Below, piece by piece: positions 360 to 20,717 of a stretch of DNA of 21,690 nt. The notes under the pieces were generated by a model. The model saw only the letters and a list, made by a program, of their open reading frames with translations, was not told the origin of the DNA and did not search any database. How positions within the stretch are numbered: position 1 is the stretch's first letter; each line of letters starts with the position of its first letter. Origin of the DNA: a virus; IMG/VR virus record IMGVR_UViG_3300046007_009227, positions 1 through 21,690 of that record. One strand, written 5' to 3'. Made by a program: the position numbers and the translations under genes.

Positions 360-365
360 AATCTT

Positions 366-401
366 TTAAAAAATAAAATAGGGGATGTAATCACCCCCTA
401 T
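366..401 (-). terminator. Rho-independent terminator after the HNH gene
   Basis: Read on the minus strand, a 7-bp GC-rich stem (ATAGGGG at 378-384 with CCCCTAT at 395-401, 10-nt loop) is followed by TTTTATTTTTT. It lies 52 nt after the stop of the endonuclease VII-like gene and 18 nt before the start of the next gene. Confidence 0.8.
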
Positions 402-452
402 CTTGGTTAATAATAGTTAATTGTGTTTTATGTGAAACTGCTCACCTGTGAT

Positions 453-1016
453 TTATTTCACAGCCATTTTCACAATCTTGTTAAGATAAACTATAGCATT
501 TTTTAAATTGGCTATATCATCTTTAAATCCTCCTAATCCTGTATTACAATGACCACAAATAATACCTCTGGCAAAACCTGTTGTATGACAATGATCTACA
601 AAAAAACCTTTTATATGATTTGGTGTAGTTGTTTTGCATATTTCACAACATTTACCAGCTTTTTCAAACAATTCATCAAAATCTTCCTTTTTAAAAAATT
701 CAGATTTTTTGTTTAAAATGCCTCTTTTTTTCCAAGAATTTTCAAGAAATAACAGTTTGTTATTATTGTAATATTCTTTTCTTTTTTTTTGAATAGCTTC
801 TTTATTTGCATCATTGTATTTTCTAGATCTTACTAAATAATTATCTTTATTTTTTATATAATCATCTTTTCTTTTTAAAGGATCATAAGCTTTTATCTTT
901 CTTGCAGATTCACAAGATTTACAAGTTGGTGTATAACCTAATTTATGCCTTTTGGACTTATAAAAATAAACAGTTTCTTTTGTTAATTTACATGTTGTAC
1001 AAGTTATCATTTCCAT
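453..1016 (-). CDS. Endonuclease VII-like HNH homing endonuclease
   Basis: The 187-aa protein has an N-terminal zinc-finger-like pair (C6/C9 and C32/C35), a basic Lys/Tyr/Asn-rich linker, and a C-terminal recombination-endonuclease-VII-type HNH domain. The visible HNH motif is C124-x2-C127, D141-H-C-H144, then C154-x2-C157-N158, followed by the usual helix with a leucine/tyrosine end. Proteins of this build are typically free-standing homing endonucleases in phages that cut DNA at a cognate site and are copied into it. The gene has its own promoter (1032-1039) and terminator (366-401), so it is a self-contained cassette placed directly after the MoxR-type gene. Its last residues (IVKMAVK) repeat the C-terminus of that neighbour (IVRMAVK), suggesting insertion into the neighbour's 3' end. 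Structural Holliday-junction resolvase activity like T4 gp49 is less likely, given the cassette layout. Confidence 0.85.
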   Translation of the reverse strand: MEMITCTTCKLTKETVYFYKSKRHKLGYTPTCKSCESARKIKAYDPLKRKDDYIKNKDNYLVRSRKYNDANKEAIQKKRKEYYNNNKLLFLENSWKKRGILNKKSEFFKKEDFDELFEKAGKCCEICKTTTPNHIKGFFVDHCHTTGFARGIICGHCNTGLGGFKDDIANLKNAIVYLNKIVKMAVK

Positions 1017-3302: not shown

Positions 3303-3371
3303 CTGCAAGTTTCCCTGCAGATCGGACTATACCTTCACCCCAGTAGGGTGGCTTATTGTAGTCTCTGAACC
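3303..3371 (-). ncRNA. Group I intron catalytic core, P7-P8-P9
   Basis: This stretch holds the R element, the P8 hairpin CACCC-TACTG-GGGTG, the S element that closes P7 and the P9 hairpin with its GAAA loop. The last codons of the LAGLIDADG gene (up to its TAG at 3327-3329) encode R, P8 and most of S, so protein and ribozyme sequence are superimposed here. Confidence 0.85.
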
Positions 3372-4166
3372 TCTTTCTTTAAAATAATTTTCAAATTTAT
3401 TCTTTTTTCTATCTAACCAAATAGTAGCATCATTATATAAATAATTATAAAAAGCTAATGCTTTATTTGTACCAGATGTAGAAGAATACCAAATATTACT
3501 AAGTTTTCTTTTATCTTTTTTTGGAAAATTAATTGGAGCATATTTTGATAAAACACTTAACATTTCATATGTTCCACACATTCCAATACCAATTGATTTA
3601 TAAACAGTATTTGTATTGTTGTAATTTTTAGGATTACATGTAAATACAGTACCATCTCCATCAAAATAACCTCTTATAAAATGATTTATATAATCATTAT
3701 TGATATTAGGAAATTCAAGATTTAAAGATTTTCTTGGAATGCACCCAAGTTTACATAAGTCATTGAACATGATTTCACTTGTTAAATATATACCATATAC
3801 ATCATTGTATTCTTTAACTACAAAATCACCATTAATAGATTTAATAAACTTTTCAATCACTTCTTTATCTTTCACACATAAAGTAATTAACTTTTGACCA
3901 TTAGGTTTAGTATGTACACAACCATCTGCATATAAAAAACCAAGCCAATATGCTTTTTCTTCAGTGTCTATAGTATTAAAAAAGTTTTCATTCCATGATC
4001 TTTTTCTATAAACAGAATTAGATCTTTTAGTAATATTCAAGCTCTTAAGTTTTTTGTTAATATAACTTTCTGAGCAATTTAATTCATTTGCAATTTTTTG
4101 ACAACTTAAACCTGTTGTATATAACTGCTGTATAATATCATCTGTGATTAATAATTTTTGTCTCAT
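3327..4166 (-). CDS. LAGLIDADG homing endonuclease (intron-encoded)
   Basis: The 279-aa protein has an N-terminal helix-turn-helix-like segment (about 9-46) and two LAGLIDADG motifs, AYWLGFLYADG (72-82) and HFIRGYFDGDG (162-172), each with the acidic residue expected for metal binding. A two-motif monomer of this size is standard for the family. It would cut the intron-less version of the VWA-metallopeptidase gene and drive intron homing. The gene begins after the intron Q element and its 3' end overlaps the R, P8 and S core. A TATATTTG promoter element ends only 5 nt before the ATG, so the mRNA may be leaderless. I see no frameshift or missing motif, so it looks active. Confidence 0.93.
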   Translation of the reverse strand: MRQKLLITDDIIQQLYTTGLSCQKIANELNCSESYINKKLKSLNITKRSNSVYRKRSWNENFFNTIDTEEKAYWLGFLYADGCVHTKPNGQKLITLCVKDKEVIEKFIKSINGDFVVKEYNDVYGIYLTSEIMFNDLCKLGCIPRKSLNLEFPNINNDYINHFIRGYFDGDGTVFTCNPKNYNNTNTVYKSIGIGMCGTYEMLSVLSKYAPINFPKKDKRKLSNIWYSSTSGTNKALAFYNYLYNDATIWLDRKKNKFENYFKERGSETTISHPTGVKV

Positions 4167-4171
4167 AAAAA

Positions 4172-4201
4172 CAAATATACTAATTAATTTCTATTACACA
4201 A
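4172..4201 (-). promoter_or_regulatory. Bacteroidota-type promoter for the intron endonuclease
   Basis: On the minus strand, TTG, a 19-nt spacer and TATATTTG (4179-4172) match the Bacteroidota sigma consensus closely. The -7 box ends 5 nt before the ATG at 4166. The probable transcription start would therefore be at or next to the A of the start codon. Confidence 0.72.
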
Positions 4202-4385
4202 ACATTTTAAAGAAATTTGGCTGCGGATTACCCATTTAGACATCTTTATCTTTTTTACTATACCTGAATGATTAGTTCAGCCACATACTACCTCACGGTG
4301 CATGCTTAGTAGATGAAGCTTTAGGATTTTCCCGTCAATTTAAAGCTTTCAACTATATATTGCTATATAGCGGGACTAGGAGTTA

Positions 4386-5797: not shown

Positions 5798-6232
5798 CTA
5801 TTTTGTTTTATAAAACCGACCAAGAATGTTTCCATTAAGAAACTCTTCTTTCTCTAACACTTCATATACAAATTGGTGTTTTGTTTCTTGATATGTAAGC
5901 TCCATACCTGAGTAGCATATTTTAATGATTTCTCTTTTAATATGCACACCTTCTTTATGAGCCTTTTTTAATATAGCATTAGAGCTATAGTAGTTAAGAA
6001 AATCAGGCTTGATGACTCTGGTATATTTCTTAAGTCTTTTATCAGTGGTAACTGCCAGAGCTTTCTTACCTAATGGTCTCTTTATATTAGCAAAGAAGTT
6101 CTTCTTACCTATGTAAGCAACAGACTTACCATCTATTATAGCTGTCATAAGATAAATAAAACCAATTGCTCCTTCAGGAATATCTAGCTCACCAAATACT
6201 TTTCCATTATATGTCCAAAAATCTATCTTCAT
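5798..6232 (-). CDS. GIY-YIG nuclease-like protein
   Basis: The 144-aa protein has an N-terminal FIY (25-27) followed by YIGKKNF (YIG at 40-42), the two halves of a GIY-YIG motif. A basic region follows, then YYSSNAILKKAHKEG, a KREIIKIC strand, the YQETKHQF helix with the expected glutamate (E116) and a late asparagine (LNGNI, N136). This arrangement is common in phage proteins annotated as GIY-YIG or Seg-like endonucleases. It sits 2 nt from the next gene and has no promoter of its own, unlike the three endonuclease cassettes in this window. It may therefore be a resident phage nuclease rather than a homing element. Confidence 0.72.
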   Translation of the reverse strand: MKIDFWTYNGKVFGELDIPEGAIGFIYLMTAIIDGKSVAYIGKKNFFANIKRPLGKKALAVTTDKRLKKYTRVIKPDFLNYYSSNAILKKAHKEGVHIKREIIKICYSGMELTYQETKHQFVYEVLEKEEFLNGNILGRFYKTK

Positions 6233-18368: not shown

Positions 18369-19244
18369 TTAAAATATGTATCTAATTGTCATCCAAGGCA
18401 ATATACCATAAAAAGCTTGAGTAAATTCAGTTATATAACCTGGTTTTAAGTAACGGTTGTACCTTATGTTTTCACCACCATAGTGTGATACTTTGTTCTC
18501 TTGAATAAGAGGTCTCCAAAGCAAACTTTCTCCAGGAATATTATTCTGCAGATTATAAAAATGCTTCTCTGCATTGTGAGTAAGGAATATAACTTCAGCT
18601 TTTACATCTTGTCTCCAATCATACAGATAGGATGAGGCATTTACTTCAGCAAATAGTTCTTTATACTCTAATAGCCAACCATCACATACAATCACCGGAC
18701 TGAAGTTTAAGTGCACATCATAACCAGCATCTTGAAATCTTTTTACAGCATTTAATCTCTCATGTATAGGAGTTGTATTAGGTTCTAACTTTTGTCTTAA
18801 TGCTTCCGGCATAAGACTGAATCTAATTCTTACCTTACCTTGAGGATTGAATTTAAGTAAGTCTTCATTGACATACTTAGTAGCAAATGATGCCATAGCT
18901 CTTGGATGTAATGTAAAGAAATCAAAAATTCTCTCCCACTGATGGTATTTAGCATGTAAAGCAAAGTCTTCATTACAAGAGATATCATAAGTGATATACT
19001 CTTCATGTGTTTGATTTGGTTTTTCCACATCAGCAAACCATGCATGATCACTGATAGCTGTTAATATATCTCCATGATTTTTAGCAATAGATAAACCTGT
19101 AGGTTTATTTCTTTTCATATAACAATTATGAGTAAGAATACCATTTGCAAAATAATTCTCATTCTTTTGTACAGAAAAGTTGACAACCTTAGATTGTTTT
19201 GCTATCTTTGTAATAGCTTTAATTTTCTTAAATTCTAACTCCAT
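18369..19244 (-). CDS. C-intein plus C-extein of spore-photoproduct-lyase-family radical SAM protein
   Basis: Residues 1-40 are a C-intein: block F (VVNFSVQKNENYFANG) and block G (GILTHN followed by Cys41). Residues 41-291 are the C-extein, starting CYMKRNKPTG, which supplies the third cysteine of the radical SAM CxxxCxxC. It contains YDISC (Cys90, in the place of the hydrogen-donor cysteine of Bacillus SPL), KVRIRFSLMPEAL, GYDVHLNFSPVIV, EVIFLTHN, YGGENIRY and the terminal IRYIF, all typical of the SPL family. After trans-splicing with the half at 19793-20203 the enzyme is 289 aa. Its ATG shares the CATG with the start of the opposite-strand HNH gene. SPL enzymes reverse UV-made thymine dimers; the exact substrate here is unknown. 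Confidence 0.92.
   Translation of the reverse strand: MELEFKKIKAITKIAKQSKVVNFSVQKNENYFANGILTHNCYMKRNKPTGLSIAKNHGDILTAISDHAWFADVEKPNQTHEEYITYDISCNEDFALHAKYHQWERIFDFFTLHPRAMASFATKYVNEDLLKFNPQGKVRIRFSLMPEALRQKLEPNTTPIHERLNAVKRFQDAGYDVHLNFSPVIVCDGWLLEYKELFAEVNASSYLYDWRQDVKAEVIFLTHNAEKHFYNLQNNIPGESLLWRPLIQENKVSHYGGENIRYNRYLKPGYITEFTQAFYGILPWMTIRYIF
19180..19210 (+). promoter_or_regulatory. Bacteroidota-type promoter for the antisense HNH gene
   Basis: TTG (19180-19182), a 20-nt spacer and TATCTTTG (19203-19210) match TTG-N19/21-TAnnTTTG. The -7 box ends 32 nt before the ATG at 19243. The promoter lies inside the C-intein coding sequence on the other strand. Confidence 0.62.
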
Positions 19245-20064
19245 GAGCTGTAAATATTGTGGTAAAATTACAAAAAAGTCTACAACCTATTGTAATTCTA
19301 CATGTGAAACAAGTTATACTGAATTGTTTAGTCAACAGTCTAAACCTATATTCAGAACTTTTCAAGAAGCTGGTAAGCATTATAATAGAGATTTTAGAAC
19401 CATGAAAAAGTTTGAAGGTCATTTATTCACTATTGATAAAACACTTCCTGCAGCTCATACTAAATGGATTCTTTGTAAAATCTGTGGTGAACAGTCACCT
19501 AAATCTAAAGCTAGAAAAGGATACTGTAAACATTGTACTAACCAAGGACTTGGTAAAAAGAACCAGGGCCAAATTATATCTCAAAGATATCAAGGCCCCG
19601 GAAATCCTAATTACCTGGATGGAACTTCACATGCTATAGAATATCAGTCTAATGATTGGTACAAGCTTAAAAAGAATTTAAACTTTACAAACTGTGCATT
19701 AACTAATAATACTGATAATATAGATTACCATCATATTATACCAAGATGGTTTTGTAAACTTGTTGAGATAGATGTATTTGATCCTAATAATATTATTGGG
19801 CTAAATCATCAATATCACAAAGTAATTCATCATCTTCAGTTAGATATTGTGCTTCTACCCAACCTCTATTCCTTGTATAAAAAGGATGCTCTCCAGTTAC
19901 GGTCACACTTTGTCCATCTACTTCAATTACATAAAGTTCATCAATATCCCGTTGACCAATTGCAGTCACTAAGTCTGTTTCAACTTTCCCGGTATCCAGG
20001 GAAAAAGAAATTACTTGATCTCCTTCCTGAATTTCTCCAGCCATTTTTACTCCATGAGGAGTAG
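19243..20064 (+). CDS. HNH endonuclease encoded antisense within the split-intein locus
   Basis: I start at the ATG at 19243 (MSCKYCGK), giving 273 aa, because a zinc-finger-like start follows at once: C3-x2-C6 with C17/C21. A second finger has C78-x2-C81 and C95-x2-C98. The HNH core is DYHHIIPRW (H163/H164), DPNNIIGL (N182/N183) and NHQYHKVIHH (H192, H196). It would cut the uninterrupted SPL-family gene and drive homing of the split intein. Residues from about 184 onward, including H192 and H196, are encoded antisense to the N-intein 3' end, and the frame stays open for 272 nt across it. The last 75 residues look non-conserved and may be a passive tail. Confidence 0.85.
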   Translation: MSCKYCGKITKKSTTYCNSTCETSYTELFSQQSKPIFRTFQEAGKHYNRDFRTMKKFEGHLFTIDKTLPAAHTKWILCKICGEQSPKSKARKGYCKHCTNQGLGKKNQGQIISQRYQGPGNPNYLDGTSHAIEYQSNDWYKLKKNLNFTNCALTNNTDNIDYHHIIPRWFCKLVEIDVFDPNNIIGLNHQYHKVIHHLQLDIVLLPNLYSLYKKDALQLRSHFVHLLQLHKVHQYPVDQLQSLSLFQLSRYPGKKKLLDLLPEFLQPFLLHEE

Positions 20065-20203
20065 CAATTAAAGTTTCAGGAGTCACACAGTATGCACATT
20101 GATAAAGGCAACCGTGTCCAAATGAAGGACTTATGAAATCTGTTGAGCGTCCAGAAGGCCTAATAAGCATAGACTTTCTGGTAACCTCTGTAACTAAACT
20201 CAT
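19793..20203 (-). CDS. N-extein plus N-intein of spore-photoproduct-lyase-family radical SAM protein
   Basis: Residues 1-38 are the N-extein, with GHGCLYQCAY carrying the first two cluster cysteines (C32 and C36). Cys39 begins the N-intein: block A CVTPETLIATPHG and block B VTVTGEHPFYT (TGEH), followed by a GWVEAQYLTEDDELL segment. Translation stops after DLAQ at 19793, without a C-intein or endonuclease domain. The missing third cysteine is provided by the C-terminal half at 18369-19244. On its own this product cannot bind the [4Fe-4S] cluster. Its start is 4 nt after the stop of the glucosaminidase-like gene, so it is co-transcribed with that gene. Confidence 0.9.
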   Translation of the reverse strand: MSLVTEVTRKSMLIRPSGRSTDFISPSFGHGCLYQCAYCVTPETLIATPHGVKMAGEIQEGDQVISFSLDTGKVETDLVTAIGQRDIDELYVIEVDGQSVTVTGEHPFYTRNRGWVEAQYLTEDDELLCDIDDLAQ

Positions 20204-20207
20204 TAGA

Positions 20208-20717
20208 TTAATCTGTTAATTGTGCATACTCATCAAAGTGTTTCTTTAAATGAGAACTGTATCCTGGATGTGCATAATATCTATCTAAGTGAGATAAATA
20301 TTGCTCTCTTGTCATTTGATGTCCTTGTACAAATTCTAAGTATAATTTGTAATCTTCAACACTATGTTGCCAAGACTTAAAATGTGCAAAACCTTTCTTG
20401 CTTCCTAAGCTTTTAGTAGGTCTTATACCAGGATGTCTCATACCAAACAAGTTGTTATTTGTTTTAAACAAGTTGCTTGATAGATTTGATTCTTGTCTGA
20501 TGATTGCATAAGCAACTTCAGGATGTTGGATTTTTTTGTGAAGTAAATAGCTGACCAATAACTCTTTAGTTAAGAAAGTGCTATCTACTGATTTGGTGAT
20601 TGTATCTTCTACCTTAGTAGATTTCACATTAATACTTTTTGTTTCAGTGCTTTTCCCTAAGCTCATTAAACTAGTAATTGCAATAGCAATCACAATAAAT
20701 AGTGCAGTAATTTTCAT
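20208..20717 (-). CDS. Secreted glucosaminidase-like peptidoglycan hydrolase
   Basis: The 169-aa protein has an N-terminal hydrophobic signal-like helix (LFIVIAIAITSLMSL, about 6-20). The domain that follows matches FlgJ/mannosyl-glycoprotein endo-beta-N-acetylglucosaminidase-type hydrolases: HPEVAYAIIRQESNLSS (catalytic Glu76 candidate), LFKTNNNLFGMRHPG and RPTKSLGSKKGFAHF, then a YAHPGYSSHLKK end. It would cut the glycan strand of peptidoglycan in the periplasm, for lysis or entry. No lipobox cysteine is seen, so it may stay anchored by the helix or be exported. The start lies 17 nt after a terminator hairpin. The next gene (SPL half) follows within 4 nt. Confidence 0.85.
   Translation of the reverse strand: MKITALFIVIAIAITSLMSLGKSTETKSINVKSTKVEDTITKSVDSTFLTKELLVSYLLHKKIQHPEVAYAIIRQESNLSSNLFKTNNNLFGMRHPGIRPTKSLGSKKGFAHFKSWQHSVEDYKLYLEFVQGHQMTREQYLSHLDRYYAHPGYSSHLKKHFDEYAQLTD

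Follow-up and report, generated by a model that had tools for sequence, protein, structure and literature searches.

A likely homing split intein at the iron-sulfur cysteine codon of phage SPL-family genes, with an HNH nuclease gene antisense to its N-terminal half

Results

A radical SAM gene divided at its third cluster cysteine

The window analysed here is an entire IMG/VR virus contig (IMGVR_UViG_3300046007_009227; 21,690 bp), on whose minus strand the gene for a radical SAM protein of the spore photoproduct lyase (SPL) family is divided between two open reading frames (ORFs), an N-half and a C-half (Table 1). Each ORF joins a part of the host protein, the extein, to one half of a split intein, and the gap of 548 nt between the stop of the N-half and the start of the C-half is covered by a plus-strand ORF for an HNH nuclease. 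The N-extein ends with GCLYQCAY, the C-extein begins with CYMKRNKP, and the radical SAM motif C-x3-C-x2-C (CxxxCxxC) is complete only once the two halves are joined; because the third cluster ligand is also the +1 Cys of the intein, the cluster site would be restored only by this joining. An earlier note made from the letters of this DNA had described a fractured gene of environmental phage, rebuilt by a Cys1 split intein whose +1 residue is the third cluster Cys. The ORFs and coordinates are as it described, profile searches match the parts expected (TIGR01445, TIGR01443 and TIGR03886), and an enzyme gene in two ORFs with an endonuclease gene between them is indeed what lies at the locus. The antisense HNH gene in the gap, which has about 270 nt in common with the N-intein, had been overlooked; its presence would make the split gene more than a curiosity, namely the site of a mobile homing element.

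The host gene was assigned by profile searches, in which both exteins match the SPL family TIGR03886 (E 1.2e-8 for the N-extein and 4.7e-72 for the C-extein), as does the joined protein of 289 residues (2.6e-86, score 289.9), together with a match to the Pfam SPL family PF20903 (4.7e-17). The joined protein also aligns with the solved SPL structure 4fhc (6.9e-13), bringing CxxxCxxC into register and placing the Cys of DISCNED opposite that of EAACTSD, which is the H-atom donor of SPL; like 4fhc and TIGR03886 in these respects, the phage protein is shorter. The SPL-family assignment of the earlier note thus stands, and its further description as a repair enzyme is plausible. The curated TIGR03886 cut-off (437.55) is reached neither by the joined protein nor by the intact protein of the related phage L003 (289.5), and the joined protein and its intein-less phage relatives score similarly, well under both equivalog cut-offs. 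By sequence, the protein appears to belong to a divergent phage branch that is better called SPL-family-like than a confirmed equivalog, with a presumed lyase activity. The earlier note had also raised the prospect of an intact SPL gene elsewhere in the genome; none was seen when 11 contigs that bear the element were examined, which span 25-107 kb and may be fragments.

Two intein halves that probably trans-splice

Both ORFs carry recognisable intein ends, with the N-half matching TIGR01445 (intein_Nterm, 2.5e-7) and the C-half TIGR01443 (intein_Cterm, 7.7e-6), each above cut-off. The N-intein has the landmarks CVTPETLIATPHG...TGEHPFY...DELLCDIDDLAQ, and the residues of a Class 1 intein, namely Cys1, the block B motif TxxH (here TxEH), the penultimate His, the terminal Asn and the +1 Cys, are kept in all aligned members. 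Furthermore, the halves are segregated by charge, with an acidic N-intein (-10 to -16) and a basic C-intein (+4 to +6); natural split inteins have halves of opposite charge. These features suggest that trans-splicing of the two halves is probable.

The inserted element measures 965 bp in 32 of 33 copies (980 bp in the outgroup L086), and since 965 is not a multiple of three (remainder 2) the halves are not readable as one frame. In all elements measured their frames are offset by 2 nt, which rules out frame read-through and cis-splicing. The possibility that the insertion is a group I intron and not an intein was also considered, and Rfam gave no match in the split-gene region. The same element occupies the same codon in 40 other IMG/VR contigs (two from metagenome 3300025872 possibly represent one locus, and some are near-duplicates), with an SPL gene as host wherever the extein is readable. 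This identical arrangement refutes the assembly error that the earlier note had named as a possible source of the split. More generally, the idea that frame errors of assembly or sequencing broke a single intein ORF deserves practically no credence: we found no point that supports it, and the 965-bp structure recurs with the same frame offset in independent metagenomes.

An HNH nuclease gene between the halves

The start codons of the C-half and of the HNH gene lie within one CATG, on opposite strands. This start site is conserved as TCATG in 31 of 33 elements, with TTATG in L083 and an altered start in L086. In an alignment of 26 HNH sequences, H163, H164, N183 and H192 are invariant, as is the second of the two sets of Cys pairs in the protein; taken together, the Cys pairs vary little or not at all. 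In an AF2 model, residues 160-200 form a strand-strand-helix unit, and viral HNH proteins are among the Foldseek matches of this model. The protein therefore resembles phage HNH homing endonucleases in its HNH residues, its Cys pairs and its predicted strand-strand-helix unit. Unlike them, its C-terminal third is antisense to an intein, and pattern scans, some aimed within the overlap and others mostly outside it, did not find it beyond the 965-bp element. In addition, both blocks of a promoter-like sequence within the C-intein gene are near-invariant across close elements, codon third positions included. We suggest that the nuclease gene is probably transcribed from a promoter of its own, which would yield an RNA complementary to the N-half message.

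Selection on both strands of the N-intein

The 3' end of the HNH gene crosses the N-half ORF in antisense and terminates 25 nt before it would reach the 5' end of the N-intein. Because the HNH frame runs for 272 nt over the N-half, its last His and its C-terminal third lie opposite the N-intein, the H192 codon facing the N-intein tail ELLCDI. Such a frame might be a by-product of the amino-acid constraint on the intein, with the real HNH protein ending near residue 200, so that N183 and H192 would still fall at or just inside the overlap; the low confidence of the AF2 model over the last 34 residues, where no known domain was found, would agree with this. We consider this reading unlikely in view of the distribution of stop codons. 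When the N-intein codons of 25 distinct elements were redrawn randomly among synonyms, using the phages' own codon usage, 3.3-5.6 stops were expected in the HNH frame, whereas all 25 elements have none (P(no stop) <= 0.011 for each). The same holds for six diverged members, with N-intein identity down to 46% and again 0 stops. The other antisense frames showed no stop depletion in this redraw, and 13 unrelated inteins carry 3-10 stops in the corresponding antisense frame.

The pattern of substitutions argues in the same direction. Synonymous variation (pS) of the N-intein within the overlap is 0.085, whereas the C-intein and the non-overlapping part of the HNH gene of the same elements reach 0.351 and 0.450, respectively; across the overlap the reduction is thus 4-5-fold. 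The third codon position is the least variable of the N-intein (0.043), opposite to the pattern of the C-intein (0.162). For the overlap in the HNH frame, pS is 0.176 and nonsynonymous variation (pN) is 0.061 (pN/pS 0.345). These values together indicate that both strands are constrained. In the outgroup L086 (46% N-intein identity and ~34-40% HNH identity), the register and the motif HHLQLDIVLLP...YKKDA are retained. The antisense frame is thus conserved and under selection.

Since the intein has its sequence in common with NrdJ-1 up to the ELLCDI tail, the intein is presumably the older of the two, and the nuclease C-terminus would have been overprinted on it. It is our judgement, held with fair confidence, that about 270 bp of one DNA encode on opposite strands the N-intein and, overprinted, the end of the HNH motif with the C-terminal third of the nuclease, and that this intein architecture is previously undescribed.

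Empty sites and recent transfer

The intein-less homologues that the earlier note proposed to look for are present in related phages. In the main blocks of its alignment with the window, L003 shows 95-99% identity, and it has an empty site whose junction falls exactly at the Cys codon. Of the 76 junctions that could be decided in the closest SPL relatives, 72 are empty. The element is younger than its host gene and has empty sites in relatives, as expected of mobility by an HNH homing endonuclease. Host-gene and element histories also disagree: pS averages 0.643 in the C-extein and 0.450 in the HNH gene, with a correlation of 0.20, and is lower in the HNH gene in 274 of 300 pairs. L062 and L067, for example, differ with a pS of 0.654 in the C-extein and of 0.009 in the HNH gene. 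Furthermore, the first 300 bp of the element are identical in L060 and L061, and just upstream of Cys1 the two agree at only 21/30. The element has therefore moved recently between distant SPL alleles. In the comparison of the window with L003, ~75 bp of the 5' flank are diverged and the 3' flank is identical, a contrast that is confounded by strong protein conservation; it is suggestive of flank co-conversion, which we do not claim.

These data bear on the proposal of the earlier note that enzyme activation depends on splicing. The dependence follows from the anatomy, because a cluster ligand that is also the +1 Cys means that activity must wait for splicing, and a domesticated switch, in which active SPL would require both halves and the HNH gene would be a passenger or a regulator, would fit this, as it would the purifying selection on the C-exteins; antisense HNH transcription could moreover repress the N-half. 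We nevertheless regard a switch as quite unlikely. A near-identical phage lacks the element, most decidable junctions are empty, the element recently moved between distant alleles and a switch does not need a selected nuclease frame; presence, absence and transfer fit a parasite better.

Wider scans did not find the element in cellular genomes (genome contigs scanned with the HNH alignment); named phages gave no HNH match and only distant inteins in other genes. Other host genes yielded no copy, the more distant N-intein matches being Hint domains or inteins unrelated to this one. Among ~40 contigs, none was found to carry the split intein of the SPL gene without its nuclease.

Two contigs carry partial host sequences next to the gene. 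L060 has a duplicate SPL N-extein fragment (2630-2745) upstream of its intact split gene, ending exactly at the insertion point with GCLYNCSY followed by TAA; it would fit a break at the homing site that was badly repaired, and may be a scar of that event. In L073 (240-620), a shorter N-extein fragment, which ends RSTDFI, precedes an ORF for a GIY-YIG-like endonuclease, both lying upstream of the split SPL gene.

A model for homing and points against it

Together, the evidence makes it very likely that the element is a homing split intein at the Fe-S Cys codon of phage SPL genes, equipped with an antisense, overprinted HNH nuclease; splicing, cleavage and lyase activity are the predicted parts of this model. 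In it, the 965-bp element sits between the second and third cluster Cys of the SPL-family gene, whose halves would be separate translation products, brought together by association of the acidic N-intein with the basic C-intein. Trans-splicing would then give ...GCLYQCAYCYMK..., with the [4Fe-4S] motif restored, so that the insertion would be tolerated. The spacer encodes the element's own putative HNH homing endonuclease on the opposite strand, beginning at the CATG in common with the C-half and extending antisense through nearly the whole N-intein. Cleavage by the nuclease would be expected at the conserved Cys-codon site of spl alleles that lack the intein, and the element would be copied in when such a break is repaired from an allele that bears it, a mobility to which indirect evidence points.

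Several observations weigh against this model. The support for the predicted trans-splicing and cleavage comes from sequence comparison, and the block F Asp of typical inteins is replaced by Asn in every family member seen (VVNFSV; YNFAV in L086), which may alter the splicing rate; Class 1 membership, despite block F, is indicated by the remaining blocks and by TIGR01443 and TIGR01445. The AF2 model of the HNH protein is of medium confidence (pLDDT ~70, and <50 for the last 34 residues), Foldseek returned no solved structure at E <= 0.001, the Pfam HNH model did not match and the match to phrog_8048 (HNH) is weak (0.0036). The predicted status of splicing and the block F Asn would also suit a dead or dying gene, broken by insertion of the HNH gene and left as decaying halves that do not splice. 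This is very unlikely, given that all intein blocks are retained in members diverged down to 46% identity, that in 11 contigs both exteins keep open frames free of internal stops, and that the C-extein, with a pN/pS of ~0.35, is under purifying selection.

Relation to known systems

The kind of element is a known one. Fractured genes with split inteins were reportedly described by Dassa et al. in 2009 for gp41, NrdJ, NrdA, IMPDH and others, half of the loci being said to have a Vsr-like nuclease. Such loci reportedly resemble the present one in that a split intein breaks a conserved phage enzyme gene and an endonuclease gene lies between the two parts; they would differ in that our host is an SPL-family radical SAM gene and our nuclease an HNH protein in antisense, overlapping the N-half by 272 nt. 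Among solved split inteins, NrdJ-1 is close to the N-intein in sequence. A cis intein in the phage B12-binding radical SAM protein of L279/L280 (3224-5749) is likewise inserted before the third cluster Cys (after CKFGCNF) and has an HNH domain, but it is one continuous ORF with an in-frame, same-strand HNH, the usual bifunctional intein, without a split or an antisense gene. NF038136 (the Rv2578c family, with cis inteins) aligns across the extein and intein of the N-half and is also one continuous ORF.

In the open-licence literature we found no paper combining an intein with spore photoproduct lyase and only unrelated reviews for split inteins and radical SAM; titles and abstracts pointed to nothing on an antisense intein nuclease. 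Within the limits of these checks, the SPL host and the antisense overprinted nuclease are new; because the search was limited to open-licence papers, we call the novelty of the antisense overlap probable.

According to the homing-cycle model, endonucleases decay after an element is fixed, when no empty sites are left to select for cutting. Here the antisense nuclease frame removes most of the synonymous freedom of the N-intein and so ties the nuclease to splicing; if overprinting has occurred, the nuclease could not easily be lost without risk to splicing. The element thereby makes it testable whether an overlap can protect a homing nuclease from decay. It also offers a case, with L086 as outgroup, in which two proteins that can each be recognised independently are encoded antisense to one another over a long stretch, and a new split-intein family that would act at an Fe-S ligand and could be tried as ligation tools.

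Table 1. Positions of the split gene, the mobile element and the antisense nuclease gene in the window
Feature	Position	Strand	Basis or remarks
N-half ORF	20203-19793	-	136 aa = 38-aa N-extein + 98-aa N-intein
N-extein of SPL-family radical SAM protein, 38 aa, holds cluster Cys 1 and 2	20090..20203	-	TIGR03886 match; contiguous with C-extein in intein-less L003
N-intein, 98 aa; Cys1 at 20089-20087; stop codon 19793-19795	19796..20089	-	TIGR01445; aligned in 15 contigs; NrdJ-1 split intein among nearest solved relatives
C-half ORF	19244-18369	-	291 aa = 40-aa C-intein + 251-aa C-extein
C-intein, 40 aa, ending ANGILTHN	19125..19244	-	TIGR01443; ATG distance same in 31 other contigs
C-extein of SPL-family protein, 251 aa, first residue is third cluster Cys; stop 18369-18371	18372..19124	-	TIGR03886 4.7e-72; pN/pS ~0.35
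Whole mobile element (very likely homing), 965 bp; empty site in L003 at position 3979/3980	19125..20089	.	L003 comparison; base-by-base contig comparison
Putative HNH homing endonuclease gene, 273 aa, antisense to host gene	19243..20064	+	HNH residues, Cys pairs, AF2 model, Foldseek viral HNH matches
HNH residues	H163/H164 19729-19734; N183 19789-19791; H192 19816-19818	+	
Shared start: CATG (19242-19245) contains C-half ATG (-) and HNH ATG (+)	19243..19245	.	Sequence; element comparison
Antisense coding overlap, 272 nt: N-intein on -, HNH C-terminal third on +	19793..20064	.	Zero stops in 25/25 distinct and 6/6 diverged elements; pS
Candidate HNH promoter TTGACA-17-TATCTT(TG), within C-intein gene, tentative	19180..19208	+	Consensus match 10/12; chance matches common

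Neighbouring genes

Elsewhere on the minus strand of the window, a DUF2201/VWA metallopeptidase gene (3303-4337) is interrupted between NIAMD and MEINQYI by a LAGLIDADG ORF (3327-4166), an insertion that L003 also has. Sub-threshold Rfam group I intron matches flank this ORF (3303-3444, E 2e-6; 4179-4337, E 0.005), and the insertion is likely to be a group I intron. A weak match to the L20 leader RNA (365-485, minus strand; 25.8 bits, E 0.26) is below threshold and probably due to chance. Further nuclease genes on the minus strand encode an endonuclease VII-like protein (453-1016, PF02945) and a SegE-like GIY-YIG protein (5798-6232, PF19835). Directly upstream of the N-half, on the same strand, lies the gene for a glucosaminidase-domain protein (20208-20717; PF01832, 3.4e-8).
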